Shown here: piece after piece, positions 19,032 through 61,166 of the stretch
How positions within the stretch are numbered: position 1 is the stretch's first letter
Layout: each line of letters starts with the position of its first letter
Assembly (NCBI RefSeq): GCF_019649055.1
Contig: NW_026570255.1
Span: forward strand, 1,178,001 to 1,242,000
Source: Paramacrobiotus metropolitanus
Lineage: Eukaryota; Tardigrada; Eutardigrada; Parachela; Macrobiotidae
Reading direction: 5' to 3'
Length of the DNA: 64,000 nucleotides
Notes under the pieces: generated by a model
What the model saw: only the letters and a program-made list of their open reading frames with translations
Databases searched by the model: none
What the model was told of the DNA's origin: nothing
Made by a program: the position numbers and the translations under genes

Positions 19032-21339
19032 CGCAGGCTTGAAGCGAATCGAAAAACCTTTCATCAGACGCACCGCAGATCTTTCAGTAGAGTAAAGTGG
19101 TGCCTCCGCAAAACGCTGAAGGATCTGCTTTTCGTTTGGAGGCTTACTGCACGAGTAAGGAACGAAAAACGAATGTAGCATGTGGATTTATAATGTAGCG
19201 AGTCACAACTGGACTGCGGCACTGGCCGCACTGCTACAGTTTGCCCAACCGTGCACTGTAACTAGCAAACCCGTTTGAAGTTGTATACTATATCCGCCCG
19301 ATAGATCTGCACGACTTTCAGGTCAGGGCGCAATCTTCCCCTTGCCGGGTACTCAGCACTAGCCTTTCCCCCACCGGTGTGCACTGCGCTTGAATTTTTC
19401 CTTATACCACACTCTGTGGTGCAAGTCGGGCGGATGCAGTAATTTTCTGCGAAATGACCCTGCGCTTAAACCGGTAAAACTGTTCGCCGGTCCAGAAAAA
19501 CAATATTCGAAAATTTTGCCGCCTACATTATTTTACTTTGCGACACGGCCAAATGGACTTCACCAAGTCAAACTCCTAACAAAGCAATGTCACACAAAAG
19601 TGTGAAAGCGTGAACGAGCAGTTTTCCAAATACACTGGTGTGTCTTAGCGAAATGTGCATTTCCCGCCATGTCACCGTTACGAAAACGTGAACTTTTCGA
19701 TCAGATGAAAGTATTACATAGGAATGTGGATTTCAGGCTATTCCGGGACCACATCGAAACGGCCACGTGTGTTACATTGCGCCACCACAACTGACAATTA
19801 AAAAAAACAACAGTTCAAAAAGGGATCATTGTTCCTCGGTTACCATTTAAATGCGTTCGAAAGGGACATTATTGCCGAAATATCACCACGTGCGTGAAGC
19901 ATGGCACAGATCGCTGCAGCGTCGTACCAAGTTTCTGGTACATACAAAGAAATTTACATTGCACCTTGACAAAACCGTACGCTAGCGAGTACACTAACAA
20001 CTGTAAAAAAGCGGTCAAGCAAGATTTACGGAGGTGGTGTTGTAATAACTAGAGCTTCATCCATCTGTACAGTTTTGCCGGTTACATGTGTGAGGCGAGG
20101 GATCACTAGCGTTCACGCCTGAGGCGCTAGGCGCTACGCCGATGGATTACGTGTCTGTGTTGTGTCTCGCTTCGGATTGGCTTGCGTTTTGTTAGTGGGC
20201 GCGGCATAGCACCGTGCTGCACGGCGTAGAATTGGCTCTACGATTTACGATCGAGCTGCGCCGATCAGTGTTGATTTTCTGTTGTCCAGACTTTCAATAT
20301 TATTAAAGTCAGCAATTGGCGGTGCGACGTCTTGTGTTTCCACATAGTTCGCAATCCAGATCGCATTGCTCACTCCACAGGATCTACTCCGTTTAGGTCT
20401 CTGTCCCTGGATCCATTCTGGATCTAGCATTAAACATGCAAATACTGTACATCCATTTCATAAGCTTTAAGCTCCTAATGAAGGAGCATAAAGTAAAAAG
20501 AAAAGCGAACTATCCATGCAACTGAATTGCGCAACCTACAGCAACCCTTTAAAGCGTTTTTTCCATCGTAACCGTTTAATTTTTATTTGTCACAGTTTTT
20601 TCAGGAATATGGGGCTTGCAGCCTGATGAGTTAAACGTTGATAAAAATTTAAGCGAAACTAGTTTATTACGGTTTTTCTTATTTTCACAGTACTTTTCCG
20701 AATACTGTACTTTAGAAGCTTGCAAAAGCGCGCTTTGTCTCATAAACGGAAACTAAGAATGCTTGACTCGGGCCATGACGGACATGATTTCTGTGCCCTT
20801 GCTTTTTATTTTGCATAGCTTTTCTCTTACTTATTATCGGGGCCGTATGTATAGCCGCTCACATATCATTGACGCGAAACCGCTGCGAAGCCGAATAAGG
20901 GTACTGTCTGCGTGATCGGTCACCACAGCCATGCAAATGCTCGCAACCGTCAAAAACGTTAAGGCGTTAGAGACGTGTGGTGGATGATTTTGCTCATTAA
21001 CCGTTCAAAAAGTTCGCCGCAAATGTTGCCCAACAATCGTTTTCTTCTGCTTTTGGGTTGTAAAATAAAATGGAAATGCGTAAAATTTTTTCTACGAATG
21101 TTGTGGATTGTTTGTACTCCGTATACGTCGAACTAGGACGTTTCGGCATACATTATTCATAGCAAATTTGTATCAAAAATGTTTGCGTAGCGTCGTACAA
21201 TTTCGTGAAAATGTATCGAATGGGTGCGTGTTTAGAATTTGGCAGCTACAGATTCACACCTCAACACTCGAAAATTATTCGTTTAGGCGGTGAATTCACA
21301 TCCCGACATTTTGACATTTAGCCTGTCGGGACATAATAT
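19032..21339. other. Unannotated stretch
   Basis: No gene recognised in 2.3 kb. Short open frames lack motifs. The composition is typical intergenic DNA. Confidence 0.4.
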
Positions 21340-41679: not shown

Positions 41680-43070
41680 ATGTTCGCTGTTCTGATGCGA
41701 TGGAAATTACGGGACAAGCTTGTAGATCAATGCAAATGTTTTTTGAGTGCGCGAAGACGGACTGGGACACCTGCCAAAATTGCAATTGCAGTGAAGAAAG
41801 CCCATCTGGATTTGAACCGGGAAAATGCCCGCGCGCAAGCGGGTGCGTGGGATATGGATTTGCGCAATATCCTTAACTTAGAGCATCCGAACTTGGTACG
41901 TCATCTGGCGCATCAAAATGCCCAGGAGACCGGCTTAGTGGACGTGCCGAATTATGTTATTATCATGGAGTATTGTTCAGGTATATTTGTACAAACTGGG
42001 AAAAAGTCTACGGTTAAATTATCCCATGTTATAGATGTATCTATTGTCACTTATACTGGGTGAGCTGACGCGCTGACGTCTGTATGTCTTAATAAAATGC
42101 CCACGTTACTGTACACATAAAATTAGGCCTCGTCCCGAATTCAAATCGAATCTCGTTGCGATACAGCTACTCCACCTCGCGAGGTGGCTTCGCGTACCGT
42201 ATCTGTAGGCGTGGCCACTGCGTACAGCCACCTCGTGCGGTTGAGCAACCGTACCAAAGCGAGATTCGCTTGGAATTCGGAACAAGGCCTTACTCTTCGT
42301 TTGGTTACCTTGAAATAGGTTTGTTATATGTGGAAGAATAAGCGTTGCTGGCATTTATGCAAAGCCCAATAAACTTCCCAATTTTATAACCTTTTGTTTT
42401 AATTTTATTTCTGTATACGTAATAATAATATGATTTTGTTTCGATTTCAGGTGGGACACTCCATGCGGCGGCAAAATATAAAATTCCCGCCGCACTTTTC
42501 CAGAAATGGACCCACCATATTGTGGACGGCTTAACGTATTTGCACTCCAAAAAGATCGTCCACCGCGACATTAAGGGCATCAACATCCTGCTCAGCAGTG
42601 CCGACTGGAATACGTGCCAAATCAAGATCGCCGATCTAGGCGCCATCAAGCGTCTGTTGGCCAACATGACCCAAGCGAAGGAGGTCTCGCACGACAAAGG
42701 CACGTGGGCCTTCATGTCGCCAGAAATGATCATGGGCAACGACATCGGCTTCAACATCGGTCGCAAGACCGATATCTGGAGCTTCGGCTGTGTGGTGCTG
42801 GAGATGATCAGCGGGTTCCCGCGTTTTGTCAAGGAAGTCGACGGGAAGCAGATGGACCTGAAGACCGACTTGGCCGCCATGTATTACATCGGTAGCGGAG
42901 GGTCGCCCATTATTCCCAGCGACATACCAAACGAATTGCGGGACTTTGTGGCGGATTGTCTGTCACGTGATCCGGAAAAGCGACCAGGCGCCAGTGAGCT
43001 GTTGGTTAAACCGTTCATGACGATGACCAATGCACCGCAGTGGCCGGACATGCGCCCACCAAGAATATGA
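41680..43070 (+). CDS. Protein kinase-like gene, tandem copy 1 (catalytic motifs largely kept)
   Basis: Exon 1 (41680?-41980) ends after MEYCSG at a GTATAT donor; exon 2 (42451-43070) follows TTTCGATTTCAG; the phase-1 join gives SGGTLHAAA. Exon 1 has the VAIK-type lysine (IAIAVKK) and the hinge IIMEYC, but no clear Gly-rich loop. Exon 2 has HRDIKGINILLS (catalytic Asp, Lys and Asn present), DLG in place of DFG (IADLGAIKRL), SPEM for APE, the DIWSFGCVVLEM helix and a C-lobe end at PDMRPPRI. The pattern is closest to STE/MAP3K-like kinases. The N-lobe is divergent and short; the 5' start is uncertain because conservation with the paralogues begins only near residue 30. The intron contains a 164-bp MITE. 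Confidence 0.75.
42126..42289. mobile_element. MITE in kinase copy 1 intron, TTA target duplication
   Basis: Inverted ends GGCCTCGTCCCGAATTC and, from the right, GGCCTTGTTCCGAATTC continue to CGAATCTCG, about 30 bp in all. The flanks are TTA on each side (42123-42125, 42290-42292). A 3-bp TWA duplication suits PIF/Harbinger (Tourist-like) elements. The interior holds a perfect 16-bp palindrome CCACCTCGCGAGGTGG (42172-42187). Confidence 0.75.
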
Positions 43071-44825
43071 ACGGCTGTTGCCAGGGCGACTTGTTTATCT
43101 CGTCTAGTATCTTGCGGACTTTTTATAAGCATCTGTATTGGGTTGGTCCCACTTTTCTAAGTTTTCGAAGACGAAAGCAGTGTGCGCCGACTTTGTGCGC
43201 GAGTTCAAAAGGTGCAATCCGCATGGTTAACAACCGGTCGCGAAACGCTTCGTTCAGCTCATTCATAAAACTTAGTAGCAACATCTGTATCTGTATGTAC
43301 GTAATTAATCATAACGAAAAATCCAGGATAAATTAAAATAATGAACTGGCGTCAGTGAGGTGCTATAACGGCCAGTGTCAGTAAAAATATCCATCACAAT
43401 ACATTCTAAAGCTGGTTGTAACTTTTGTGACCGCGCTGTCGTTGGCTTTTCCCAGATTATCTGGTGCTTCTTTTCCTGAAACCGCAAAAAAGTGTATCCC
43501 ACGCATTTGGAGTGCACTGCACTCAGTGTAGTACCGCTTCAGCGTTGGGAATAAAGATATAATTAACGACTTAAAAATTCGATGATTTAGCATCCTCTTG
43601 CAACGGAACATAATCCATGGAAGGAGGACAACAAAACTTAAAAGAATCACAACAGCAAACGCCGTCCAAAGCACGGTCTAAATACAAAGGCTGTGGTAAT
43701 TGGTAAATGGGGTATCGCACGCTGACACCAGCATAATCTATAAACCTCGAACAAAAAAAGCAGATCAAAACCAGACACCTTAACAAGGCGCATGGGAAGG
43801 CTCCAAATTCAGAGAACTCTAATTCCTGCGAACGCAGGTGGTATACGACTGTGCTTAAAAATTTTCCTTAACCACTGGTCATCTCGATGACCATTACAAT
43901 ACACCCATCTTGAAGTATTCGTTGAGATCTGTCCTCTGAGCTAATGACATATTCTATGCGATGTTTTTATCAGTTGTTATAAACGGCAGTGTATAACATG
44001 TCGGCGCAACATGGTTACCATGGCCGACATGGTCATCTCCTGCTTGACCTATGGCCACTAAAATTTTGAAAAAAGTATTTTTCTCTTAATTAAGTTTTTT
44101 TGTCCCAGACTGCCAATTTTCAAAACTGTAGTCCTATCCCTTCTAGTACCCGGTTTTCCTGGGTTAACAAGTAATTTTAATCAGCAATGGTCAATATGGG
44201 GGTACCAAACAATAATCAGAAATACACAAAGTACTAGGTGTACCACTGTAATACGAATCGTACAACCAGTAATTTGCTGTTAAGGCATGTTAAGAATCAT
44301 AGGAGACCTAAGAAAACTAAAACTAACCAGAGAAGCATCTTTTCTCAAAAACAGTAGAGTGCCATAAGCATTTTATGTTGGGAGAATATGTGAGGATATA
44401 TACAAGGCATTAAAATACTAAAATGTCCAAGTTGACAGATTCAGCTGAAGCAGTCCAAGTTAAGAAGTCCACGATTTGAAATCCATCTCCGGTTACGTCA
44501 GATTTTCACTGGTTTCAATTTTCTCCTATATTAGTATCGCCCTGAGTCGGCTATCTACAATATGATGTAATGAATACAAATAATATTGAACTAATAACGA
44601 TATCACCGGCTTAACACAATCAAGAAAGAGATGTGCGCTTATCATCAGATTAACCGTGATCGCGCTTTCCGGCGGTTCTGTACTAAATACACCGGCAGCG
44701 CTGTTAGAAAAGCGCTGCGTTTCGAGTTTTCTGAAGGCTAAAACTAGATGGGAATAGTGCTTGGTAAGTTGGTGGTAAATGTATTATGCACAACTAGTTT
44801 TGATTGGCTTAAGAGATACTGTATC
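43071..44825. other. Intergenic region between kinase copies 1 and 2
   Basis: No gene. A partial copy of the GTCCAAGTTAAGAAGTCCA motif family of the 40.5 kb element lies near 44425-44490. A minus-strand frame at 43378-43674 has a hydrophobic start but no supporting splice or homology signal and is not called. Confidence 0.4.
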
Positions 44826-46055
44826 ATGGCCAGCGCAGCAGATCCAACATGGCTGCAAATACCGTATCCGTTCGTAGAAGTTCTTAGTGCCACTCCCGTT
44901 GTCTATCTGGCCCACCGTACTGAAGGCCTTGGACCCGGAGAAATTGTGATAAAACAATCCCTTTTGGGATCGAACAGGGAAAAAGCCAATGAGCAGGCGG
45001 ATGCGTTGGACGCCGATCTGCGGCATCTTCTGAGTTTAAACCATCCATATTTGGTGCGTCACCTGGCGCACTGCCATTCTTGGGAGGGCAGCCCAGTGGA
45101 CGTGGCAAAATACAGAATTATTATGGAATACTGTTGCGGTAAATAATGAATGCGTGTGTGCTGCAGAACCCTGCAGTAACAATAACTGCGGCTTAGGCAG
45201 CGCAAATGGGCATTAAAACTTCGTTCTCCGTAGTTTAAAATTTAAAGCTAGCGTTACGAGCCAGATTACTTAGAAACTGTATGTGGTTCGACGCTCTAAA
45301 AAAAATTAGCAATAAAATTTACATATAATATTATGGAAAAAACAGTTAAACAGTAGATTTAGAATACAGTAAAACCTCCTCTTACGTACACTCCCACGTT
45401 ACGTACACCTCTAAAATAAGTACGAAAAATTTTGTACCGAATTACTCCGTAAGCTAAAGTACAGGGGGAAACCTCTACGTGACGTACACCTCCAGGTAAC
45501 GTACGATTTTTTTTGAAAGGAGATGTACGTATCTCAGAGGTTTCACTGTACGTAAGTATTCGCTACAATTTCTCAGTTTATGGGTGTTTGTTCTCTTAGG
45601 CGGGAATCTGCACGCTGCGGCTCAGTTGCACATTGCCGCGCCCCTCGTACAAAAATGGACGAGCCAGATTCTCGCCGGCTTAGCCTATCTGCACGCCCAA
45701 CACATTGTGCACCGCGATTTAACGGGAACCAATATTCTGCTAAGCAGCCCGGACTGGGACACCTGCCAAATGAAGATTGGTCGCCTGGACGCCAGTAAAC
45801 GTCTAGTATACGATACGATTGAGGCGAAGGAAGTCCCGCGCTACAGACGTATGTGTGCTTTCATGTCACCGGAAATGATCAATGACGACGATACCGGCTT
45901 CAATATCGGTCGCAAAACCGATATATGGAGTTTTGGCTGCGTCTTATTGGAGATGGTTAGCGGATTCTCGCGCTTCGTTAAGGAAGTGAACGGAAACCAG
46001 GTGGACTTGAAGAACGGTCTGAGCATCATGTATTACGTCGGCTGTGGCCGGTCGC
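44826..46055 (+). pseudogene. Kinase-like gene, tandem copy 2, 5' part, interrupted by the 12-kb transposon
   Basis: Exon 1 (44826-45138) starts in the context GTATCATGGCCAGC, shared with copy 3, and ends at GTAAAT after MEYCCG. Exon 2 starts at 45600 after TTCTCTTAG. The VAIK-type Lys is present (EIVIKQS). HRD is kept (HRDLTGTNILLS) but the catalytic-loop Lys is Thr, and the DFG site reads RLD (KIGRLDASKRL), so metal-binding Asp is lost: a predicted pseudokinase even before insertion. The frame is cut at 46055 by the transposon, just after GCGRS. The rest of the C-lobe is found 12.2 kb downstream (58304-58486). Confidence 0.85.
45367..45548. mobile_element. pogo/Tigger-like MITE in kinase copy 2 intron (182 bp)
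   Basis: Ends CAGTAAAACCTC and, inverted, CAGTGAAACCTC, flanked by TA (45365-45366, 45549-45550). The interior repeats CGTACACCTC-like motifs in both orientations. Its termini match those of the 1.86-kb element at 25265-27120, so the two belong to one family. Confidence 0.8.
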
Positions 46056-46325
46056 CTGTGACCGGCAAAAATGTCCCCCCTGTCCCCCCGGACATTTTTG
46101 CCGTGTCCCCCCTGCCACCATCTCCAAAACGGTAACCCTTTGGCCAGAATGGTAACATGGGGGACTTACAACGGAAAGTTGATTTTCAGGTCGATCGGTG
46201 ACCTTTGAAAATGTGCCACAAGCGTTACCACGGCGTTACCTGTCCAAAACAGTTGAGGAACATCGGTCACCTAAAGACATTACAGCAGAACAGAACTTAC
46301 TGGTTTCCGGCAAGGGGGTAAACGA
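46056..46325. repeat. Left terminal inverted repeat, with a terminal hairpin
   Basis: About 270 bp matching the inverse of 58035-58303 with few differences. Close to the tip, 46063-46076 and 46090-46103 are perfect 14-bp inverted arms (CGGCAAAAATGTCC and its complement) around a C-rich 13-nt centre, so the end itself can form a hairpin. The same structure exists at the right end. Confidence 0.9.
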
Positions 46326-47345
46326 AATTACTGGTGTCCGCCATGGGGGACATTATTGCCGGAACAAAATTACTGATGTCCGACAAGGGTTACATTATTG
46401 CTGGAACGAAATTACTGGTATCCGGCATGGGGGACATTATTGCCGGGACGAAATTACTGGTATCCGGCATGGGGGACATTATTGCCGGAACGAAATTACT
46501 AGTGTCCGGCACGGGGGACATTATTGCCGGAACGAAATTACTAGTGTCCGGCATGGGGGACATTATTGCCTGAAAGAAATTACTGGTGTCCGGCATGGTG
46601 GACATTATTGCCGGAACGAAATTACTGGTATCCGGCATGGGGGACATTATTGCCGGACAGAAAATACTGGTATCCGGCATGGGGGAAATTATTGCCGGAA
46701 TAAAATTACTGGTGTCCGACATGAGGGACATTACTGCCGGAACAACATTACGGGTGTACGACATGGGGGACATTATTGTCGGAACGAAATTACTGGTATC
46801 CGGCATGGGGGACATTATTGCCGGGACGAAATTACTAGTGTCCGGCATGGGAACATTATTGCCGGAACGAAATTACTAGTGTCCGGCATGGGGGACATTA
46901 TTGCCGGAACGAAATTACTAGTGTCCGGCATGGGGGACATTATTGCCGGAACAACATTACGGGTGTACGACATGGGGGACAATATTGTCGGAACAAAATT
47001 ATTGGAGTCCGACATGGGGGACATTATTGCCGGAACAAAATTACTGGAGTCCGACAAGGGTTAAATAATTGCTGGAACGAAATTACTGGTATCCGGCATG
47101 GGGGACATTATTGCCGGAACGAAATTACTAGTGTCCGGCATGGGGGACATTATTGACGGAACGAAATTACTAGTGTCCGGCATGGGGGACATTATTGCCG
47201 GAACAACATTACGGGTGTACGACATGGGGGACAATATTGTCGGAACAAAATTATTGGAGTCCGACATGGGGGACATTATTGCCGGAACAAAATTACTGGA
47301 GTCCGACAGGGGACATTATTGCCGGAACGACAATATTGGTGTCGA
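46326..47345 (+). repeat. Left 42-bp tandem array (about 24 units)
   Basis: Consecutive 42-bp units, each containing GGGGGACATTATTGCCGG followed by AACGAAATTACTGGT and TCCGGCAT. Units differ by a few substitutions and some higher-order blocks are duplicated (46890-47055 resembles 47090-47310). 42 is divisible by three, so the array reads as 14-residue repeats in several frames. These are not regarded as proteins. Confidence 0.9.
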
Positions 47346-48802
47346 GTGTTGACGTTATCGCAAACATTCGCAATAAAGCGGAAATAAGTGACCGATGTTG
47401 CAGAACTGCGGTTAAAATGCTAGACCTTATACTGTACAGTACTCAACGAAAGTCCTGTCAAAGATCCGAGCGCTTTAGTTGATGTTATAATTACTGATTA
47501 CCTTTAATGCATGCTGCAGAGCGCGTAGTAGCAGCGCATACCGGCTACAACGGCTGATCAAAATTAAGTTACTAATTACGCTTAGTTATTACTAACCCCA
47601 CTTATTACTAAGCCCTCACCCACTTATAAGTGTGTGAGTAATTACTTTCTTGCCAGGCTATCACAGTAATCCCACCTATAAGAATACATCGCATAAGATG
47701 AGCTATGATAATTTTCAGGAATTTTTTGAAAATTCGCTAACGACTTTGTGTTGTCAATTCTAATTACATATACATGTAACTGTTAATTATTCTCATTTAA
47801 ATCCGCACTACTAGTACTGCCCCGCACATGAATTCTTATTCCTCGCATTAGCTGCAGGAACGATGGAGATCATGGCGTCAGACTAAGAAAAATATTTGGT
47901 TAACTTACTGCATTTTTTTAGCTTGAAGAAGCAGCACCCTAGTGTACTTATCAAACACTGCCGTTACAGTATCAATGTACAGCTCATGGGGAATAATATT
48001 TCCGAAAATAATGACCAAAAGCCAACGAAAGATTAGCTGCAATTCGAGCTTCTGTAAAGCTATGGAAAGTTACGTAATTTCAGCGATTTTTGGATCAGCG
48101 ATTTATTGTGGCGCTGGTTCACCATTCGCTTTATTCAATGGGATCCTGTTGTTCAGTCGCCCAATCCGTCTACCGCGCCTACAGTTAATTATGCTACTAC
48201 TACATTGGAAGTCACACGCAAAGGAGCCCCAGCCGGTCAAAGAGAGATCAAAGCTCCTCCGTATATTCCTAATCGGTCAGCATTCGGTTTTGATATTGAT
48301 CCGAAGAAGACCCGTGCAACAGCGACGACCGCTCCCTAATCTGTATTTCAACGTTATCCGGCAACTGTTCCGATGTTGCTTCCCTCGGAAGGCTGTTACC
48401 TCACCGATGCCACCGTAGAACTATCTGTAATACGCTGTATATAGGCAGTCCAGATTATTTTTAGGCGCTACGGCCAAAATTTTTCTCTATACGTTTTTTC
48501 TGGTGTTTGTGCGTTTACTGCGCCTGGTTCAAAATGCATTAGGTGGAAACGCTGCAGTACTTTGAGTTATGCATATGACCATATCTGTGCATACCTGCCG
48601 AAATAGAGCTTCAGGTAGCTGCCAATATGTGGAGATTATCAGAGCTGGATACCGGTCTTGATTTCAAATTTAGACATGTTAAATGTTTGACAGGTAGTTC
48701 CTACTTGTTCGTTCGTTTGGGAGATACAAACGTTTTTTACCACACACGATTACCTCGTTTGCGGAATCGGAGATCATTAAATAACTGGTTTGGGTTTTTC
48801 AA
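47346..48802. other. Transposon leader region with a possible small ORF
   Basis: Between the left array and the transposase. A plus frame at 48106-48339 gives a Pro/Thr-rich peptide with PPYIPNRSAFGFDIDPKK, stops at TAA, and stays open in the same frame for another 40 codons. It might be a decayed first exon or small accessory ORF, but no family is recognised. The rest is AT-rich and should hold the transposase promoter. Confidence 0.3.
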
Positions 48803-51800
48803 ATGGCTTCTAAGCAGCATGTTGATTTGCAAGCAATCAAAGAGTATCTAGAGACTCAGAAGTATCCGGCAGGAGTAACGACGAAAAATCAGAAATGAGT
48901 TTTCCGCAGACGCTCCGATGGATTTCATGTGGGCCAGAACAAACTGTACCGCAAGAAATCGAGCGGAAAGGTTGTTGAAGGTGCCACTCAGAGTGCTCCA
49001 GACGTAATTGTTGTTTTATGCCCTGAAGAAGCAAAAAAGCTAGTGACTGGGTTGCACAGGTAAAATACAGCTTTTAAAGCTTCTCCTTCCAAATTGTCTT
49101 TCTGCTCTCATTAGAAAGGTTCGAAAGAACTAGAGATTTCACGGAATCAGTTAGAAATATTACTTGTATTTAATTACGGGAAGCAAAGTTTATGCGCGCA
49201 TCTCATACGATTGAGGCTTTTTCATATTCTAACGACGGGTATCTTTTGGCTCCCTGACTACCTTTTACTTTGTCTGAAGTTGCCATTCCCTAGCCTGTTT
49301 TTAAATGAGAATTAATTTTTCTGCGGCAAGTCATGAGTTTATCTTGCAGTACACTTGGTCACGCTCGTCGAGATGCACTGGAGGCATCTGTCAACCGGTT
49401 GTATTACTGGAATGGAATACGTCAGACGATAGACGAAGTGGTAATACCACTTGGCACAAAATATTAAAACAACCTGATTGCAGCTGCCTAACTGAACATG
49501 CATATTTTAGACAAATTCATGTTCAATCTGCAACGAACAAGGGAAAGGTTTAGACGCCGTGAAGGAGCCTTTGGCCTCCACAGCTGTACCCGGCCGACCA
49601 TGGGCACTTATCGGATACGATCTGATTGAACTGCCGAAAACGAAGCAAGGGAACGTTTACGTGTTGACCGTCGTGGACTATTTCACGAAGTTCAGGATGG
49701 CTTTCCCGATTCCGGATAAAAAGGCCGAAACCATCGTAGAAAAGCTCTACCACGTGTACTCTCTTTCTGGGATTCCCGAGAATATAATTTCCGACAACGG
49801 TAGGTGCTCACTGAACGGCGAAACGATATTAAATGATCAGCAATCAACAAAATCTCGCTTCTATTAATTTTAAGTGAGATCAGATAATTTAAAATCTATT
49901 CCGTTAACTTGCTTGAAATTTCGAATAATAGTAGGTAAAAATAACCGCAAATTATTGAGATGGATATTGTGTTTGCTAGCTCCGCTTAACGCGAGCCTTT
50001 TTTAGGCACGGAGTTCAAGAACGATCCCAACAGGAATATGGAAAAAATGTTAGGCATTCGACACCGTTATGCAAAACCGCGCCATCCACGCACATGCGGT
50101 CAGATAGAACAGGTCAACAAACAGCTGAAAACGTAAGTATGACTGGTCGCGCATTCGCCAGAAACGTACGGATACACATTGAGACTGATATTAACAGTTG
50201 CGTAATCTTGTTTACTGCCGAGCACCATGAAAGATCAGGTTAACTAACTGGCGATTACTGACCACTTGACAGCCGCACACACGCTTATAGCAGTCCCTGT
50301 AAAAAATTGGTAAAGCGATACTTTCGCGAGTGCTTTTTATGAAACTAACAACCATGCCAAGTGGTACTCGTAACACGTTCGCAAAAAGGTTTTGCGCGAT
50401 TAGACCAGGATAAACCCGAAAACAAATTGTTTATCCCATAGACATGTATGTTATAGCGAACCTGCGGAAGAACGTTGTTGCCCATCGCACAGACGCAGCA
50501 CCTCGACCATAGATACTTTATGGATAAAACGTTGATCACATTAACCAATTTATAAGTTGCGATGGAAATATTTTAGGAGGTTGACAAGATAGAACTGCTG
50601 GTAAAATGGCCAAAAAGCCTAGCAAAGCAGTAGGAAGAAAAAGTTACAGTTGCTGTTCGTGTTGTTAAAACGGAAGATATCGGGCTTATCGAGTTACTGA
50701 AGGTGTTTAAGTTGGCGTTCATACTTAACTTATGAGCTGTTTTCGACAATGGTCGTTTACAACATGTCGCGGTTGTACGGCGAGCTTGTAGAACAGGGCC
50801 ACCTGCCCTTTGATAATGTCCGCTGTCACACAGAAGGTGGTGGTGCGAATAGCTAGAAGGCGGCAAAAGGGATGAGAAAAGCCAAAAGGTGGTGTAAGGT
50901 GGTGGGAATAGCCACACCCAAAAATATAATGCACTTTAGTTCTTAAAGGGTAACGTGGCTGCAATTTTTGAGAAGAAGCTTTCGATTTTTTCTTGACAGA
51001 GCTGTAACATTAAGTCGCTGTTCTCTTCTTCTACATGTTATCTTCGGTTACCGAAATTAGTCTGTAATCCAGGCTTTACACCAACATCGCCTTTTCCTTA
51101 TGCGAAAATAGGGCTTGTGCGCGCTGTTGAGTGCAAGATCGTGTGTACAGAACGTTTCGTCAGTTCACGTTGGGAGATTTCCTCGTGCTCATGCATGTAA
51201 AATAGCCATTGCTAGAAGTACCTGATAACAAGCTTGAATAATTTTGAAATTTTCTTAGTGACCTAACACAATACACCCTGGAGCGTGGCGGTGAATGGGA
51301 TAAATGGGTGGATGCTGCAGTATTTGCTGCTAATGCAACAGTCCAAAGCACGACTAATTTCCCACCATTTCGCGTCATGTTTGGGCGTGACCCTAAACTG
51401 CCAGACAGTTGCACCTACGATGGTGATGGTTCTGAGTCTGATGTTGACTGTCGCGAGTTTGATGAAGAGGATCCATTTTCCGATGCTATGCGCGACGACT
51501 TTACGCATTTACGTCAGGCTGACGAGAAAACCTTATTCGCAAAAGTTGCAGAGAACATTGGATTCGGTCAAGCCCGTCAGCAGCGGAAATATATGAACGC
51601 AACCAAGAAAGGTCGCGATATGGAGATGGGACTGCAGGTGTGGGTGCGAAGCGCTATGGCACCGAAAGGGTCCTTAAAATCCAAGCAGTTTGGCAAAGCA
51701 AAGTACACGGGCCCTTCGAAATTGTCGGGATCCAGCGAAAGGTCACGAGTTGAAAGTCCGTTCGGATGAATTTAGTGCCCCGTTTCCGGTTAATATTCGA

Positions 51801-51917
51801 GACGTGAAAGCGGTGAAAACGAAACGACACACCGAAAAGGTCACTGGTTACCGATGCAAATCAGACGGCAGGTTCGTGCTCAACGATGACTCAGATTCCA
51901 TATTTAAGTTTATGTAA
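48803..51917 (+). pseudogene. Integrase-type DDE transposase gene, five exons, decayed
   Basis: Exons 48803-49059, 49350-49440, 49511-49799, 50006-50132 and 51259-51917; all four junctions have GT/AG and preserve the frame. Exon 1 starts MASKQHVDL and holds a domain seen N-terminal to gypsy-like integrases. The junction of exons 1 and 2 forms the His pair (LH/GH) and exon 3 begins CSIC, giving an H2C2 zinc module. The core has Asp in GYDLIEL, Asp in ISDNG and Glu in GQIEQVN, with GTEF at the exon 3/4 join: a complete DDE triad. Exon 5 continues through MFGRDPKLP to a GPF-type module. Damage: TGA at 48896-48898, and two single-base frameshifts near 51710 and 51745. It would catalyse excision and insertion of the element if intact. 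Confidence 0.8.
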
Positions 51918-52001
51918 TTGCCAAATTTTCCGGGGTACGGATTCCGCTAAATTTTAACGTTTTAAATTGTGAATCTCGTTAGAAAATTGCGAACTATTTT
52001 A

Positions 52002-52696
52002 GAAACCAGACATTGTGGTCTGAGTTCATCTTGCAGTTGGAAGAAAAACGCATATGCATTACTCACTTCATGATTTCAGAAGCACGGGTCACGCCAGAAT
52101 GTCCGCCGGCCATTCCGCGAAATACGAACGGCGCTTCTGGTGCGCATTCACCCGAACCAGGTGCAGCGCACCCCGTAACTGGAAAAAATGAAGTGCATTC
52201 CTTCAACAATGAAATTTCAGTTCTTTACGCCACTGATTACCAGTCCATGCTGAAAGGAATTCAAATTCTGCGGCCGCTTTTTACGGAATTATCCATTAGC
52301 CTTCTTGAGGCAAATTTGATGCTATTGGACACAGACAATCAAGGATTTGAGTCCCTAACCGGCGCATTGAAATTGCGTGATGTGTTGCCACGACTGAACG
52401 CCCTGGACATCAGCCAAAAAAGGAAACTTTTCTACACCGACCTTGCGGCACTTCCTTTGGTGGTATTGCAGTGCATTGAAATGGAAGCCTGGCACGCTAT
52501 CAGAGACGCGCTGCGAATTTTCGAAAAACTAAGCTCCGAAAACGAAAAGAACGGTGAGAACTTTCACAACATACAATATAAGAACAACTACAAGCAACGT
52601 AACGGTCAACCGTGGACGTTTGCACTTCAACAGCTGCGCAACAGTGGCCGTGGGAATTGCATCGTTTGCTTCCCAACCGCAGCTGTTAGTTCGTAG
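52002..52696 (+). CDS. N-terminal exon of the transposon's protease/PHD gene
   Basis: Follows a CTATTTTAG acceptor; the frame stays open for about 230 codons. The centre (residues about 60-170) is helical and looks genuinely coding (SLLEANLMLLDTDNQGFES, YTDLAALPLVVLQCIEMEA), but no domain is recognised. It could be the N-terminal region of the Ulp1/PHD protein; equally, since it starts only 85 nt after the transposase stop and the acceptor phase fits, it could be spliced to the transposase to make one fusion. The region to 52948 would then be intron. Confidence 0.5.
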
Positions 52697-52948
52697 TTTA
52701 GTAATGGTTGCGCTTCGACGTCGAAGCGCAACGCTTACGCGGACAAGTCAGCTGTAAACCCATCCCAGATTTTGTGATTACGAATCACAATGTTTGCTTG
52801 CTTACGCGCTGTTACGTCACATTTTTACGCGTTTTCCCGTTACCCGTTGCGCAACGGTTACCCAGATGTAATTGACCTCCACCATTGTATGTTATAATTA
52901 GAAATCGCCATACAGAATACGCTTTATGTTTCCTATTTTCTTTTATAG

Positions 52949-53523
52949 AGAGAGATATGGATAGAGCAATCGTCTGGTTTGCCATCACGGAACCAGTGAA
53001 ACTGGTGTTGACCTATGAAGACTGGATATCTATCTACTACACTGCCGAATGGCTTACGGATGTAACAATCTTTGCCGCCCAGATTTTATTAAGAAAACAG
53101 TATCCAGATATTAATGGACTAGAAAATCCGGTTCAATACAGCATTCCGCGTGCGAACAAGGGAGATGCTTTTGAAGGAAACGGTGATGGGGCTGCGAAGA
53201 AAAAAAGAACGGAGCAGCGATAACAACTTTCGGAAATCTCAAATCATTTTCACCCAAGGAAATCACTGGATATTCGTGACCAACTACCATGATAAAGAAG
53301 CAAATGAAGTGATGGTTTATGACAGCCTCACTCCGCGCCTGGATTTTGTCCTCGACCAAGAAATCGCATCCATTTTCAGATTTCAATTTTGTGACTCCAT
53401 AAGGATTTGCTATCCTCCCATGATACATCAGGAACACGGGTGTGATTGTGGAGTATACGCCATCGCCTACCTTACTGAAAAGTGTTACGGTGGGGATCCG
53501 GAAAAGAAGCGATATATCAAAAG
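52949..53523 (+). pseudogene. Ulp1-like (C48) cysteine protease exon, frameshifted
   Basis: Starts after TCTTTTATAG and ends at GTAAGT. It reads WLTDVTIFAAQILLRKQYP, the approach region of transposon Ulp1 proteases. It then changes frame at an A-rich run near 53197-53205 and continues with NHWIFVT (catalytic His), VYDSL (Asp) and HQEHGCDCGVYA (Gln and catalytic Cys). All catalytic residues are visible. Ulp1-family enzymes cleave ubiquitin/SUMO-like substrates; such domains are repeatedly carried by eukaryotic DNA transposons. The frameshift at a homopolymer may be real decay or a base-count error. Confidence 0.8.
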
Positions 53524-53654
53524 GTAAGTACCATCAGTTCCAGTTTCCAGTTTAGAAATTAGAGCCTACCTAGAATTACGTATATGGGGTAACCACATTC
53601 CAAATTTGGGAGTAAGAACCGTTTTCAATTTCAAAAACTTTTCGCTTTACTTAG

Positions 53655-53935
53655 GAAATGCGGAAACACTTGATTCAGTGTTTAAGAAATGGGCGCCTTA
53701 CTCCCTTTCCGAGCGTGCCTGCAAACCTAAATGGTTCGTCTTTGACAAGAAATACGCTCTTGTACTGTGTTTGCCGAATGCCTGTCGGCTTCAACGGGAA
53801 ATTATGTGGACCTGTGCAGAATGCAAGCGAGGCTACCACCAGTCTTGCGTGACCGCAAAGATGACAGATATCCACAGTCCAGCCGGCGAACTGGAAATGC
53901 CCAAATTGTGAAGGTGAAATACATCAAGTAGCGAC
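53655..53935 (+). pseudogene. PHD zinc-finger exon of the transposon, frameshifted
   Basis: After an acceptor TTTACTTAG, three pieces of a C4HC3 PHD finger appear in alternating frames: LYCVCRMP, then TCAECKRGYHQSC, then WKCPNC near 53902. PHD fingers read histone tails; in transposons they may steer insertion. The two frame changes make a functional finger unlikely in this copy. Confidence 0.7.
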
Positions 53936-54279
53936 ATTGCATTAAAACATTTTATTCCGTTAAAGCTAAACAGGAAAACTTTGCATTTCAGACCAACCGG
54001 AAAACCTGAATTCAAATGACATCATTACCGCGAGCCAAGAAACAAGAATACAGAGAGTAGCCACGAGACGCCGGCTGAACCCAGCCACAACCGAGGATTA
54101 ACTGTTTTGCACTAGAACAAACAGTTTGCTGTCTTGCGTTCTCACTCAGTCGAGCTTCCCAACGGATTAGAGCAATTTTTGTAACTGGCACTATAAATTG
54201 TGAAACCATCTACAGTCGGTCTTCAAGAAGAAAGCTAGTTTCGAAAAAACAATTACATTGACAAACAATCCCGCAGCAT

Positions 54280-57200
54280 TGTCCCCATGTCGGACACCAG
54301 TAATTTCGTTCCGGCAATAATGTCCCCATGCCGAATACCAGTAATTTCGTTCCGGCAATCATGTCTCCATGCCGAATACCAGTAATTTCTTTCCGGCAAT
54401 AATGTCCCCCATGCCGGATACCAGAAATTTTGTTCCGGCAATAATTTCCCCCATGCCGAATACCAGTAATTTCGTTCCGGCAATAATGTCCCATGCCGAA
54501 TACCAGTAATTTCTTTCCGGCAATAATGTCCCCCATGCCGGATACCAGAAATTTTGTTCCGGCAATAATGTCCCCCATGCCGAATACCAGTAATTTCGTT
54601 CCGGCAATAATGTCCCCCATGCCGGATACCAGAAATTTTGTTCCGGCAATAATGTCCCCCATGCCGGATACCAGTAATTTCGTTCCGGCAATAATGTCCC
54701 CCATGCCGGATACTAGTAATTTTGTTCAGGCAATAATGTCCCCATGTCGGACACCAGTATTTTCTTTCCGGCAATAATGTCCCCATGCCGGACACTAGTA
54801 ATTTCGTTCCGGCAATAATGTCCCCATGCCGGACACCGTATTTGTTCCGGCAATATGTCCCCATGCCGAATACCATAATTTCTTCCGGCAATAATGTCCC
54901 CATGCCGGATACCAGAATTCCGGCAATACCATGCCGAATACTAATTTCGTTCCGGCAATAATGTCCCCATGCCGGATACCAGTAATTTCGTTCCGGCAAT
55001 AATGTCCCCCATGCCGGACACCATAAATTCGTTCCGGCAATAATGTCCCCCATGCCGGATACCAGTGTTTCGTTCCGGCAATAATGTCCCCATGCCGAAT
55101 ACCAGTAATTTCGTTCCGGCAATAATGTCCCCCATGCCGGATACTAAATTTCGTTCCGGCAATAATGTCCCCATGCCGGATACCAGTAATTTCGTTCCGG
55201 CAATGTCCCCATGCCGGACACCATAAATTCGTTCCGGCAATAATGTCCCCGCGGATGCCTGGTTTCGTTCCGGCAATAATGTCCCCATGCCGGATACTAG
55301 TAATTTTGTTCAGGCAATGTCCCTGATGTCGGACACCAGTATTTTCTTTCCGGCAATAATGTCCCCCATGCCGGACACTAAATTCGTTCCGGCAATAATG
55401 TCCCCATGCCGGATACCCGTAATTTCGTTCCGGCAATAATGTCCCCATGCCGAATACCAGAATTTTGTTCCGGCAATAATTTCCCCATGCCGAATACCAG
55501 TAATTTCGTTCCGGCAAATGTCTCCATGCCGAATACCAGTAATTTCTTTCCGGCAATAATGTCCCCATGCCGGATACCAATTCGTTCCGGCAATAATGTC
55601 CCCATGCCGAATACCATAAATTCGTTCCGGCAATAATGTCCCCATGCCGGATACCAGAATTCGTTCCGGCAATAATGTCCCCCATGCCGAATACCAGTAA
55701 TTTCGTTCCGGCAATAATGTCCCCATGCCGACACCATAATTCGTTCCGGCAATAATGTCCCCCATGCCGGACACTAGTAATTTCGTTCCGGCAATAATGT
55801 CCCCATGCCGGACACTAGTAATTTCGTTCCGGCAATAATGTCCCCATGCCGGATACCAGTAATTTCGTTCCGGCAATAATGTCCCCATGCCGGATACTGT
55901 AATTTGTTCGGCAATAATGTCCCCATGTCGGACACCGTAATTTCGTTCCGGCAATAATGTCCCCATGCCGGACACTAGTAATTTCGTTCCGGCAATAATG
56001 TCCCCATGCCGGACACCGTACTTTCGTTCCGGCAATAATGTCCCCATGCCGAATACCAGTAATTTCGTTCCGGCAATAATGTCCCCATGCCGGACACCAC
56101 TAAATTTCGTTCCGGCAATAATGTCCCCATGCCGAATACCGTAATTTCGTTCCGGCAATAATGTCCCCCATGCCGGACACCGAACGTTCCGGCAATAATG
56201 TCTATGCCGGATACGTCCCCCATGCCGGATACTATTAATTTTGTTCCGGGCAATAATGTCGATGTCGGACACCAGTATTTTCTTTCCGGCAATAATGTCC
56301 CCCATGCCGGACACTAGTAGACTTCGTTCCGGCAATAATGTCCCCCATGCCGGATACCGTAATTTCGTTCCGGCAATAATGTCCCCATGCCGGATACCAG
56401 TAATTTCTTTCCGGCAATATGTCCCATGCCGGATACCAGAAATTTTGTTCCGGCAATAATGTCCCCATGCCGGATACTGGTAATTTCGTTCCGGCAATAA
56501 TGTCCCATGCCGAATACCAGAATTTCTTTCCGGCAATAAATGTCCATGCCGGATACCAAATTTTGTTCCGGCAATAATGTCCCCATGCCGAATACCAGTA
56601 ATTTCGTTCCGGCAATAATGTCCCCATGCCGGATACCAGAATTTTGTTCCGGCAATAATGTCCCCCATGCCGGATACCGTAATTTCGTTCCGGCAATAAT
56701 GTCCCCATGCCGAATACCAGTAATTTCTTTCCGGCAATAATGTCCCCATGCCGGACACTAGTAATTTCGTTCCGGCAATAATGTCCCCATGCCGGACACC
56801 AGTAATTTTGTTCCGGCAATAATGTCCCCCATGCCGGATACCAGTAATTTCGTTCCGGCAATAATGTCCCCCATGCCGGATACTAGTAATTTTGTTCAGG
56901 CAATAATGTCCCCGATGTCGGACACCAGTATTTTCTTTCCGGCAATAATGTCTCCCATGCCGGACACTAGTAATTTCGTTCCGGCAATAATGTCCCCCAT
57001 GCCGAATACCAGTAATTTCGTTCCGGCAATAATGTCTCCATGCCGAATACCAGTAATTTCTTTCCGGCAATAATGTCCCCCATGCCGGATACCAGAAATT
57101 TTGTTCCGGCAATAATTTCCCCCATGCCGAATACCAGTAATTTCGTTCCGGCAATAATGTCTCCATGCCGAATACCAGTAATTTCTTTCCGGCAATAATG

Positions 57201-58035
57201 TCCCCCATGCCGGATACCAGAAATTTTGTTCCGGCAATAATGTCCCCCATGCCGAATACCAGTAATTTCGTTCCGGCAATCATGTCCCCATGCCGAATAC
57301 CAGTAATTTCTTTCCGGCAATAATGTCCCCCATGCCGGACACTAGTAATTTCGTTCCGGCAATAATGTCCCCCGTGCCGGACACTAGTAATTTCGTTCCG
57401 GCAATAATTTCCCCCATGCCGGATACCAGTAATTTCGTTCCGGCAATAATGTCCCCCATGCCGGATACTAGTAATTTTGTTCAGGCAATAATGTCCCCGA
57501 TGTCGGACACCAGTATTTTCTTTCCGGCAATAATGTCTCCCATGCCGGACACTAGTAATTTCGTTCCGGCAATAATGTCCCCCATGCCGGACACTAGTAA
57601 TTTCGTTCCGTCAATAATGTCCCCCATGCCGGACACTAGTAATTTCGTTCCGGCAATAATGTCCCCCATGCCGGACACTAGTAATTTCGTTCCGGCAATA
57701 ATGTCCCTTATGCCGGACACTAGTAATTTCGTTCCGACAATAATGTCCCCCATGCCGGATACCAGTAATTTTGTTCCGGCAATAATGTCCCCGATGTCGG
57801 ACAATAGTATTTTCTTTCCGGCAATAATGTCCCCCATGCCGGATACCAGTAATTTCGTTCCGGCAATAATGTCCCCCATGCCGGACACTAGTAATTTCTT
57901 TCAGGCAATAATGTCCCTCATGCCGGATACCAGTAATTTCGTTCCAGCAATAATGTAACCCTTGTCGGACACCAGTAATTTCGTTCCGGCAATAATGTCC
58001 CCCATGCTTGACACCCGTAATTTCGTTTCGGCAAT
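54280..58035 (-). repeat. Right 42-bp tandem array (about 90 units, inverted)
   Basis: The same 42-bp unit as the left array but on the opposite strand, so the arrays extend the terminal inverted repeats. Units at 54400-54720 and 56820-58000 mostly carry a run of five Cs before ATGCC, whereas units between about 54740 and 56790 mostly carry four Cs and have frequent 1-3 base losses. Open frames of up to 657 codons across the array are by-products of the 42-bp period. Confidence 0.9.
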
Positions 58036-58303
58036 AATGACCCCCTTGCCGGAAACCTGTAAGTTCAGTTCTGCTGTAATGTCCTTAGGTGACCGATGTT
58101 CCTCAACTGTTTTGGACAGGTAACGCCGTGGTAACGCTGGTGGCACATTTTCAAAGGTCACCGATCGACCTGAAAATCAACTTTCCGTTGTAAGTCCCCC
58201 ATGTTACCATTCTGGCCAAAGGGTTACCGTTTTGGAGATGGTGGCAGGGGGGACACGGCAAAAATGTCCGGGGGGACAGGGGGGACATTTTTGCCGGTCA
58301 CAG
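58036..58303. repeat. Right terminal inverted repeat
   Basis: The inverse of 46056-46325, including the tip hairpin (GGACATTTTTGCCG and complement around a G-rich centre) and ending GGTCACAG at 58303, directly followed by the TCGC duplication. Confidence 0.9.
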
Positions 58304-58486
58304 TCGCCGATAATACCCAGTAAATTGCCGTATGAGCTGCGGATGTTGATTGCTGACTGTCTGCAGCGGGAACCTGTATTACGGCCACTGGCTGCTGACC
58401 TCTTAAGCAAACCTTTTTTGACGATGTCTAACGTGCCGCAATGGCCTGATGCGCGCCCGCAGCGAAATGCATGCAGCGTAGATTGA
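58304..58486 (+). pseudogene. Kinase-like gene, tandem copy 2, 3' part
   Basis: Resumes the C-lobe of copy 2 after the transposon: SPIIPSKLPYELR... aligns with SPIIPSDIPNELR of copy 1, continues through LIADCLQREPVLRP and ends PQWPDARPQR plus a short tail before TGA. Joining 46055 to 58308 with one TCGC removed keeps a single frame, proving that 44826-46055 and this piece were one exon. Confidence 0.9.
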
Positions 58487-59496
58487 AAACTTCATTGCAC
58501 CAGTTTACATTGCACTACGCGTACAACTAAACGTAGATGCGGTGTTCATAAGCGAAGCTGCAATAACAGATATTTACTGCGCGTTTGCAGTTTCTGAGTA
58601 TTTTTTTCCTAATGATGCCATACTCTAATGCACGCAGCGTTATTAACGCAAATAACAAAAGTACCAATAGCGGCTGCACTAAACGAAAACTTTGGTTTTT
58701 GAGCACTCGGAAGCACATTTCTATATTGTTTTATGATCATTTTGGAGACAAGATATGATCAGTTATTTATCTGAAAATCATTTGCGCGCTCAACACCCGG
58801 TTGCCAAGACACAAAATAAAAGCGGGAAAAATGCTTGAGCGCGTCGTTGTGTACTTATCAATATTAATACTTAAGGTAGTAAGTAAGCAGACCTCTGCCG
58901 GTTTTAGGACTTTATAAAATGATACAAATGAAAGATTCGCGGGGAACGTCAACAACACGCACAAGTTAGTTTGCCTTTGCTCTTTCCTAACCACTCACAA
59001 AAACAGAACTACTTGCTTATCGTTACTGCGCGTTGATTAATACTGAGGACTAAAATTATTTCGGAAAGTGGCGACGCCATCGGTAATAATCGGCTGAAAC
59101 GTTCTGAAACGGCTCAATTCTGTTACTTAATGCTCATCAGATTGTCGCTGGTTTCTGTTTACTCCTATCAGCTGCCTCTCCCTTCCGCTCTCAACCGGTT
59201 ATCGTTGTGATATTATTATGATGAAATAATGATACAGTAACGCTGCAACAGTGATATAATCGGCTTAATAGAGGAAAGGAGGTTCGGTTATCAACAGAAT
59301 AATCGTTATCGCTCTTTGTGGCGGTTATTAACTGAACAAACACGCGCTGCATTTTGTCCACACATTCGTATGGCGATCGGTAAAGGTTTGGCTGAAGATA
59401 AAACAAGCTGCTGTGGCAAACTGGCAATACTTACGCGTTCATTGAGCCGTGCACATTCAGTGTTGATTAGTCAGATAGTGTATAAACGACAGTATC
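58487..59496. other. Intergenic region between kinase copies 2 and 3
   Basis: No gene seen. Upstream control of copy 3 must lie here, but no TATA box or other site could be supported. Confidence 0.4.
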
Positions 59497-61166
59497 ATGG
59501 CCAGCGAAGCAGTTCCATTACCTCCGCAAATCCCGTATCGCTTAGCAGCAAAGCTTAGTCATAGCGAAAGAGCCGAGGTCTGGCTGGCTCACCGCACGGA
59601 CGGAATTCGACCCGTAGAGATCGCCGTGAAAGAAGTCTATTTGGGTTCTAACCGGGAAATTGCCCACGTGCGGGCCAACTCGATGGACACCGATTTAAGG
59701 CATATCCTTAGTTTCGCTCATCCGAATCTGGTGCGTCATCTGGCACAGTACAATCCTCCGGAGGCCGAACCGAAGATTCTGCCGTATTACATCATCATTA
59801 TGGAATATTGTTCCGGTAAATTGTCTTCGGTCTGTGTTGCGTGCTGATCGTTCGATTCGAATTTATGCTTTAACGCGGGCTTTTGCATCACCTCTGCTAA
59901 TTATGCAGCGTGGAAATCTAATGAGGCTGAGTGCTAAGAGTTATATCATACGTCTCGGCAGCCATATTGCTTATACTAGGAAAGGGCACCTCTGTTGGCT
60001 AGCACTGAAAGACCGAAGCGAAGCAAACCAAATTTTATAAACGGTAGGAGGTGCATGTTTTTAAGTTTATATATTAATTTAAAATTTCCGAATTATTGTT
60101 TTTTGTGTTAAAAAAAACAGTTTTCAAAATTATTTTCTATTATAAATTTTATTCAAAATATGAAGGCATGACCGACGTGACCGACAAAAGTCCTGTTTAT
60201 TTGAACATAGAGGACCTTTGCTTAGCTTCGATCGATAATAATAATTCAATTTTTGCTTTCATTAATCGTAATTTTATATTGAAAGCTAAATAAAACGCAG
60301 AAACAAAAATTATGGCTGCTTTAATCGACCGAAACATTAGGGTTTGACCAAACAAAACATTTTTACAATAACTTTTAGAATTTTTGAAATTTTGTAAGTC
60401 CTCCTAGTGCCAGAACGGATAATATTACGGCCGACATATTATTGATTCTGCGTTTTACTTAGCCTAAAACATAAAATTAGGAACAATGAAAACAAAAATC
60501 ACATAATGACTTACTTAATGGTTATGATTACTCGGCTTATGGATAATTATTTTCTCAGGCGGCGATTTACATGAGGCGTCTCAATTCTACATTCCCGCGC
60601 CACTTATTCAGAATTGGACACGGCAGATTGTCGACGGTTTAGCCTATCTGCACGCCCTGCACTTTGTCCACAGTGAAATAACGGGTAAAAATATTCTGCT
60701 GAGCAGCACGGACTGGAACTCCTGCCAAATGAAGATTGCCAATCTGGACACCACTCAGCGTTTCCAAAGCAATATGGCTCTGGCGAAGGAGATGTCGAAG
60801 AGTGGATACGAGGGCGCCTTCACGTCACCTGAGGGGCTCGTGAGCGGTAATGTCAACCACAAGAGCGATATCTGGAGTTTGGGCTGTGTGCTGCTGGAGA
60901 TGATCAGCGGATCGCCGCGCTTCGTCAAGGAAGTCGACGGGAAACAGGTGGAATCGCAAACGCACCTGATGGCCATGTACTACATCGGTACCGGCGGGTT
61001 GCCGAAAATACCGAAGCAACTGTCGCATGAATTGCGGGCGTTCGTCGTTTATTTTCTGAAACGCGATCCTGTATTACGGCCAATGGCAGCCGAACTCTCG
61101 TACACGAACTTTTTGACGCTGGATAATGTGTCGCAATGGCCTGACTCGCGCCCGCTGCGAAAGTGA
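59497..61166 (+). CDS. Pseudokinase-like gene, tandem copy 3
   Basis: Exon 1 (59497-59815) begins MASEAVPLPPQIPY, the best start of the three copies, and ends at GTAAAT after MEYCSG; exon 2 (60559-61166) follows TTTTCTCAG. The phase-1 join gives SGGDLHEAS. The VAIK lysine is present (EIAVKEV) and there is no Gly-rich loop. HRD is replaced by HSE (FVHSEITGKNILLS), the catalytic-loop Lys by Thr, and DFG by NLD (IANLDTTQRF). SPEG stands for APE; the DIWSLGCVLLEM helix and C-lobe are intact to PDSRPLRK. The reading frame is otherwise undamaged, so it likely encodes a stable non-catalytic protein, perhaps a scaffold or allosteric partner. Confidence 0.8.

Follow-up and report, generated by a model that had tools for sequence, protein, structure and literature searches.

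A stretch of 64 kb from the genome of the tardigrade Paramacrobiotus metropolitanus (contig NW_026570255.1, positions 1,178,001 to 1,242,000; hereafter the window, whose own numbering is used) carries an element of 12,246 bp at positions 46057-58302, which lies within an exon of a kinase gene. An earlier note on this DNA had described a large DNA transposon with terminal inverted repeats (TIRs) inside the kinase exon, and comparison with other copies in the genome (169.8 Mb, 533 contigs) confirms that the element is real. With a probability of roughly 85%, we regard it as a TIR DNA transposon which uses a retrovirus/Gypsy-type integrase as its transposase. The element works like the Ginger1 transposons yet fails their defining duplication, being flanked by target site duplications (TSDs) of 6 bp instead of 4 bp, and it is best labelled as a variant of the Gypsy-integrase-like transposons.

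The two ends of the element are identical over 163 bp, with 259 of 263 aligned bases in agreement, and the inverted repeat continues on both sides into tandem arrays of 42-bp units. The terminal sequence CTGTGACCGGCAAAAATG is present at 46056-46073 (+) and at 58286-58303 (-) with 0 mismatches; its sole further match within 3 mismatches, at 20070-20087, has 3, and shuffled sequences lead to an expectation of 0.12 matches. Searching the genome with the 20-base tip TGTGACCGGCAAAAATGTCC returned 113 matches within 2 mismatches, 59 of them exact, while a reversed control pattern returned 1. In the other copies the tip reads TGTGACC or is closely similar, and any base may be found next to it on the outer side. 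Therefore, the terminal C and G of the window copy are assigned to the TSD, and C...G as the element ends could be ruled out. The identical inverted ends described earlier are confirmed except for this outermost C/G, and the interrupted host gene, which had been thought to fix the exact boundaries, does fix the insertion, with each end shifted by the terminal C/G. The window alone could not reveal the 6-bp duplication because the last base (C) and the first base (G) of the TSD mimic bases of the inverted repeat. One copy (C1:590k; L047 around 5329) lacks the outermost 15 bp on its right, where it ends at an inner ACA, and yet TACGCA follows as on the left side; this may be an alternative end, or sequence between two ACA may have been deleted later.

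The kinase gene provides a further view of the insertion. When its flanks are joined without the element and one target copy, they read in frame (...MYYVGCGRSPIIPSKLPYEL...), and 89 residues of two uninterrupted paralogues, at 42792-43058 (65%) and 60888-61154 (56%), align gap-free across the junction, in agreement with the earlier observation that the kinase C-lobe is broken off at one flank and continues in frame from the opposite one. From the left flank, the kinase frame continues for 25 codons inside the element before a stop at 46135. The insertion therefore truncates the last part of one kinase in a tandem cluster. The genome holds 38 matches to this kinase, including both halves of the interrupted gene. 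Related kinases form the tandem cluster in the window (42792-61154), and more are present on contig C209.

Ends were paired when they were located on one contig, giving 31 pairings. The same right end (C59) enters three of these and the same left end (C46) two, which leaves 28 elements, two of them with variant tips (TATGACC in C10 and TGTAACC in C1:2534559). The flanks match exactly at 6 bp in 15 of the 31 pairings (13 distinct) and at 3, 4, 5, 7, 8 or 9 bp in none, and when a left flank is compared with a right flank from another contig, an exact 6-bp match arises in 0.3%. The exact targets are GTCGCC (window), ATCGTG, TACGAG (twice), ACTGTA, TACGTC, CACGCT, CACGAC, TGCAAT, TACGCA, CTCGAC, GACGTG and CTCGAG (C59). 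The earlier note had claimed a perfect 4-bp duplication, TCGC, and had named beforehand a different length in other copies as refuting it; the other copies do have a different length, 6 bp, and the duplication in the window is GTCGCC. With 0 of 31 pairings exact at 4 bp against 15 at 6 bp, a 4-bp duplication is ruled out. In a sister family with the tip TGTAACC, 3 of 10 pairs are exact at 6 bp and the duplications of short copies are centred on CG. One sister-family end, with the tip TGTAACCGGCAAAACTG, lies in the window at 20067-20086 (-), and its flank recurs at C118 (L130). Pooling both families gives 35 sites with both ends (C1:2534559 stands in the pair lists of both), of which 16 are exact, 4 have one difference, 2 have two and 13 have three or more. 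At the C59 and C10 ends (L079-L082, L087-L088) the flanks are palindromic on both sides, as in inverted duplications or assembly fold-back.

The target has a marked centre. After removal of 2 duplicates from 110 entries, the window and the fetched loci provide 108 unique ends. Read outward, their positions 3-4 hold CG in 62, TG in 29, CA in 3 and TA in 2, so that a central pyrimidine-purine step is present at 96 of 108 ends. Central CG stands against a background of 5.3% (p 7e-50). The resulting pattern is NWCGWN-like and is not CCGG/CCGT. For retroviruses, a central pyrimidine-purine step is described, in the part of PMC4422553 drawn on here, as easing target bending, with a preference that weakens with longer duplications and is weakest at 6 bp. 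The 96 of 108 flexible central steps found here at a 6-bp stagger contrast with that trend.

The third target base is asymmetric. If both ends are read outward, TG and CA are expected in equal numbers, because a true duplication which shows TG at one end shows CA at the other. For the 77 ends that do not belong to exact pairs, the ratio TG:CA is 27:1 (p 2e-7; 17:1 in the main family, 10:0 in the sister family). Positions 1/6 (p 0.29) and 2/5 (p 0.75) are symmetric and position 3/4 is not (p 5e-7), with ends treated as independent. All 4 one-difference pairs and one of the two-difference pairs (s117) differ solely by C to T, and these six changes are all on the strand joined to the CA-3' end of the element while position 4 stays G; in the other two-difference pair (C17) the differences are elsewhere. 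General decay of CpG was ruled out as a sufficient cause of the CG/TG differences, the bias being strand-specific and the observed/expected CpG ratio of the window being 1.10. The asymmetry may reflect deamination of an exposed single-stranded C in the overhang before gap repair. Alternatively, a YG half-site may be all that each active site reads, in which case no CG is required for ends at separate targets. Deamination is favoured by the five near-matching pairs, and half-site reading fits the many unmatched ends.

The predicted transposase is encoded in five exons (Table 1), which are separated by four GT-AG introns with the phase kept. The spliced protein matches Pfam Integrase_H2C2 (1.2e-9) and rve (1.7e-12), its residues 31-272 match the prototype foamy virus integrase (9.7e-23), and its acidic residues are spaced as DD35E. 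An H2C2 zinc domain and a Gypsy-type DDE core, both traits of Ginger1, are thus present. A stretch of the C245 relative, KYTGPLEIV, was read by eye and not by a profile as GPY/F-like; the frame of the window copy is broken there. Upstream of H2C2, where Ginger1 carries a YPYY motif, a YP...F...LY pattern was likewise read by eye and is unscored. The window copy is broken in at least three places: exon 1 contains a stop, and the frame is lost both in the GPY/F region and in the Ulp1-like region. The first two are open in a near copy on C419 and all three in C245. Thirteen copies were read whole (12 fetched and the window), and among these tblastn exon matches at 1e-4 are present only in the window, C419 and C245.

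Downstream of the transposase lie a 237-residue open frame (orf237), an Ulp1-like region and a PHD-finger-like region. HW, YDSL and GCDCG, which we take to be the expected catalytic surroundings of Ulp1 (C48), are retained in the Ulp1-like region of both the window copy and C245, and the element probably carries Ulp1 and PHD domains. The earlier note had listed integrase-like transposases and sometimes Ulp1/PHD domains for Ginger-type elements; the transposase is borne out here by its Pfam matches, and the two further domains are probable. Searching the PDB with the single Ulp1 sequence gave none at E 0.1, and a protein search with the C245 Ulp1-like frame gave 0 among 13 candidates. Between the window copy and C245 the non-synonymous divergence (dN) is 0.18 over 688 codons, including the Ulp1-like region and orf237, with synonymous change (dS) saturated. 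This suggests past constraint on the encoded proteins, these two parts included.

Table 1. Features of the interrupted kinase gene and of the inserted element, in window coordinates
Feature	Position	Strand	Basis and remarks
Left part of interrupted kinase exon	45500..46056	+	Pfam Pkinase 6.7e-21 for 45500-46051; some intron-side sequence at lower end
Left 6-bp target copy GTCGCC, centre CG	46051..46056		Comparison with other copies
Element TGTGACC...GGTCACA, 12,246 bp	46057..58302		Ends from comparison with other copies and interrupted kinase
Left terminal inverted repeat, ahead of array	46057..46319	+	First 163 bp equal right end; hairpin formed by first 60 bases
Left array, 42-bp unit, 24.4 copies, tip motif CCGGCAANAATGTCC	46321..47343	-	Repeat finder, motif search
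Transposase exon 1, N-terminal part	48803..49059	+	One in-frame stop here; open in C245 relative
Transposase exon 2, most of H2C2 zinc domain	49350..49440	+	GT-AG splice, phase kept; Pfam PF17921 1.2e-9
Transposase exon 3, CxxC of H2C2 and first two catalytic Asp	49511..49799	+	Pfam, residue spacing
Transposase exon 4, catalytic Glu (DD35E)	50006..50132	+	Residue spacing
Transposase exon 5, C-terminal part to GPY/F region	51259..51769	+	Frame broken at GPY/F here; open in C245 relative
orf237, 237-aa open frame, no known domain	51983..52693	+	Part conserved in C245 (54% over 112 codons)
Probable Ulp1-like (C48) protease region	52957..53524	+	Two overlapping frames here, one in C245; Pfam PF02902 E 0.001 / 5.8e-4, both just below curated cutoff
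Probable PHD-finger-like region	53528..53908	+	Pfam PF00628 E 3.5e-4, below curated cutoff
Right array, 42-bp unit, 91.7 copies, CCGGCAANAATGTCC in mirror orientation	54283..58071	+	Repeat finder, motif search
Right terminal inverted repeat	58040..58302	-	259/263 aligned bases identical; inner end overlaps array as drawn by repeat finder
Right 6-bp target copy GTCGCC	58303..58308		Comparison with other copies
Right part of interrupted kinase exon (...SPIIPSKLPYELRML...)	58303..58486	+	Sequence comparison, joined frame

A 15-bp motif, CCGGCAANAATGTCC, is located 5 bp inside each tip and then again in the opposite sense, which lets a strand of the tip form a hairpin (z -9.65). Within 2 mismatches the motif is present 110 times in the element (86 on the + strand and 24 on the - strand; 4 at the tips and 106 in the arrays) and 2 times in the rest of the window. 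It is spaced mostly by 42, 41 or 40 bp, and the left and right arrays are mirror images of each other. The arrays vary in size among copies, with 9.6 units in a 0.9-kb copy (C381) and 17.6 units on one side of C245. We infer that the arrays are putative binding sites of the transposase. The transposase would bind CCGGCAANAATGTCC inside the tips and in the arrays, where the spacing of about 42 bp amounts to four helical turns. It would then free the CA-3' ends and join both of them to target strands 6 bp apart, on a target bent at its flexible central pyrimidine-purine step, and gap repair would produce the 6-bp duplication. Presumably, the regions resembling Ulp1 and PHD belong with the transposase as accessory components, as they do in Ginger1-9.

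Several points weigh against this reading. The Ulp1-like (C48) match (E 0.001 in the window, 5.8e-4 in C245) and the PHD match (3.5e-4) are all under the Pfam curated cutoffs, and a PDB search with a two-copy Ulp1 profile found no protease, its one hit being irrelevant at 0.97. The dN/dS ratio of 0.04 is a rough sign of constraint only, as synonymous sites are saturated. There is no exact 6-bp match in 16 of the 31 pairings (4 differ at one base, 2 at two and 10 at more), some of which may be unrelated ends, and the palindromic flanks of the C59 pairings are a possible inverted duplication, so that the CTCGAG match is weak evidence. Binding of CCGGCAANAATGTCC, excision and cut-and-paste movement are putative.

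The place of the element among known systems was considered on the basis of portions of the cited papers. Ginger1 elements, as presented in part of PMC2836005, combine H2C2, DDE, GPY/F, Ulp1 and PHD with introns and TGTNR ends (Ginger1-9_HM having both Ulp1 and PHD), are about 2.6-7 kb in length with TIRs of about 40-270 bp, and produce 4-bp duplications of CCGG or CCGT/ACGG, which are likewise CG-centred. A C-terminal Ulp1 or OTU domain counts among the traits of the group. The present element resembles Ginger1, and Ginger1-9_HM especially, in its Gypsy-type H2C2 and DDE transposase, its introns, its TGTNR ends with TIRs (TGTGA here) and its CG-centred target and, more tentatively, in a GPY/F-like stretch read by eye and in the probable Ulp1 and PHD domains. 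It differs in its 6-bp duplication and its target, in its length of 12.2 kb and in the arrays of the 42-bp tip motif that extend its inverted repeats. The earlier description as Ginger-like therefore holds for the protein (H2C2, rve, DD35E) and fails for the duplication. An ordinary Ginger1 with a 4-bp duplication would share the published protein layout (PMC2836005, in the part cited), but we consider it very unlikely since 15 of the 31 pairings are exact at 6 bp and none at 4 bp, and the targets are not CCGG/CCGT. We lean slightly towards a sublineage nested within Ginger1, in which the stagger widened from 4 to 6 bp and the CG-centred target was kept; the shared architecture and the likeness of the NWCGWN-like target to the CG-centred CCGG/CCGT speak for such nesting, whereas the tree described below carried no Ginger1 protein. 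Duplication length is said, in the cited part of PMC10045372, to reflect the geometry of the integrase-target complex and to tend to agree within a superfamily. A lineage at superfamily level, in which a CG-centred 4-bp stagger was widened to 6 bp, so that a Ginger-like element with integrase and protease acquired the insertion geometry of Polintons, with a C/T mark at target position 3, is a tentative proposal that we hold to be rather unlikely.

Other groups share single features with the element. Duplications of 6 bp are given for Polintons and for IS3EU/GingerRoot, and of 4-5 bp for Ginger2, in the section of PMC10045372 used here. A relative of Polinton/Maverick that retains only integrase and protease would explain the 6-bp duplication and the pairing of an rve integrase with a cysteine protease, which in our element is below cutoff. 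Against it, Polinton integrases are said in that section to be without H2C2, no polymerase B, ATPase or capsid domain was found among the open reading frames scanned (part of the element's frames), and three presumed Polinton-type integrases fall apart from the element in the tree, which makes such an origin most improbable. It is hardly more credible that the element belongs to IS3EU/GingerRoot, with which it shares the 6-bp duplication and, in some members, TG..CA ends, but which the same section of PMC10045372 describes as lacking the HHCC motif, whereas H2C2 scores 1.2e-9 here. Ginger2/TDD resembles the element in H2C2, DDE and TGTNR ends; its 4-bp duplication (5-bp in TDD-4/5) and RTATAY targets, according to part of PMC2836005, do not fit the duplication and targets observed, and it is described there as lacking GPY/F. 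A Gypsy long terminal repeat (LTR) retrotransposon differs in that the ends of our element are inverted and are not direct LTRs, and no reverse transcriptase was found among the frames scanned.

The earlier note had also asked whether a tree of the DDE core would place the element inside LTR elements or Mavericks. In a tree of 26 rows and 98 columns, from which C135, C419, C252, C284 and one Gypsy-type fragment were left out as broken or short, the element groups with C245, C58:172k and C1:3584k with moderate support (91/97), separate from the Gypsy-type and presumed Polinton-type integrases. The 12 Gypsy-type sequences, labelled mostly by long open frames with reverse transcriptase unchecked, stand apart from this group (70/70), as do three chromodomain integrases, P0004-P0006 (100/100), which we take to be Polinton-type, chiefly from their Pfam domains. 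P0002 and P0003 pair together and join no group. The deep order of the tree is tentative, given long branches and a short alignment, and no published Ginger1 or Ginger2 protein is among the rows. When the transposase served as the query of a protein search, 2133 candidates yielded 5 unnamed hits, and none of these was recognised as Ginger1. A DNA transposon that combines H2C2 with a 6-bp duplication was not found in the open-access literature searched, which leaves out most subscription papers. Accounts of tardigrade repeats (PMC11071193) and of a Ginger2-like integrase in endogenous nimaviruses (PMC10871703) had no bearing on the element. An origin of the Polinton integrase and protease from Ginger-like elements has been put forward as possible (PMC6431247, in the part available). 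As Ginger1 makes 4-bp and Polintons make 6-bp duplications, an enzyme of Ginger-like type whose stagger is 6 bp is directly relevant to this idea.

A second group of integrases is present in the same genome (C11, C116, C58:619k, C78 and C19; 100/99), apart from the group of the element. Its members (L114 3146-3469, L139-L142) are 40-47% identical in the core, and the C11 copy (L114) shows no inverted repeats of at least 20 bp within the 8 kb read. This lineage is possibly another transposon group or a set of host genes. A Gypsy-type integrase core also lies in the window itself, at 12405-12713 (-), as part of a 328-residue open frame.

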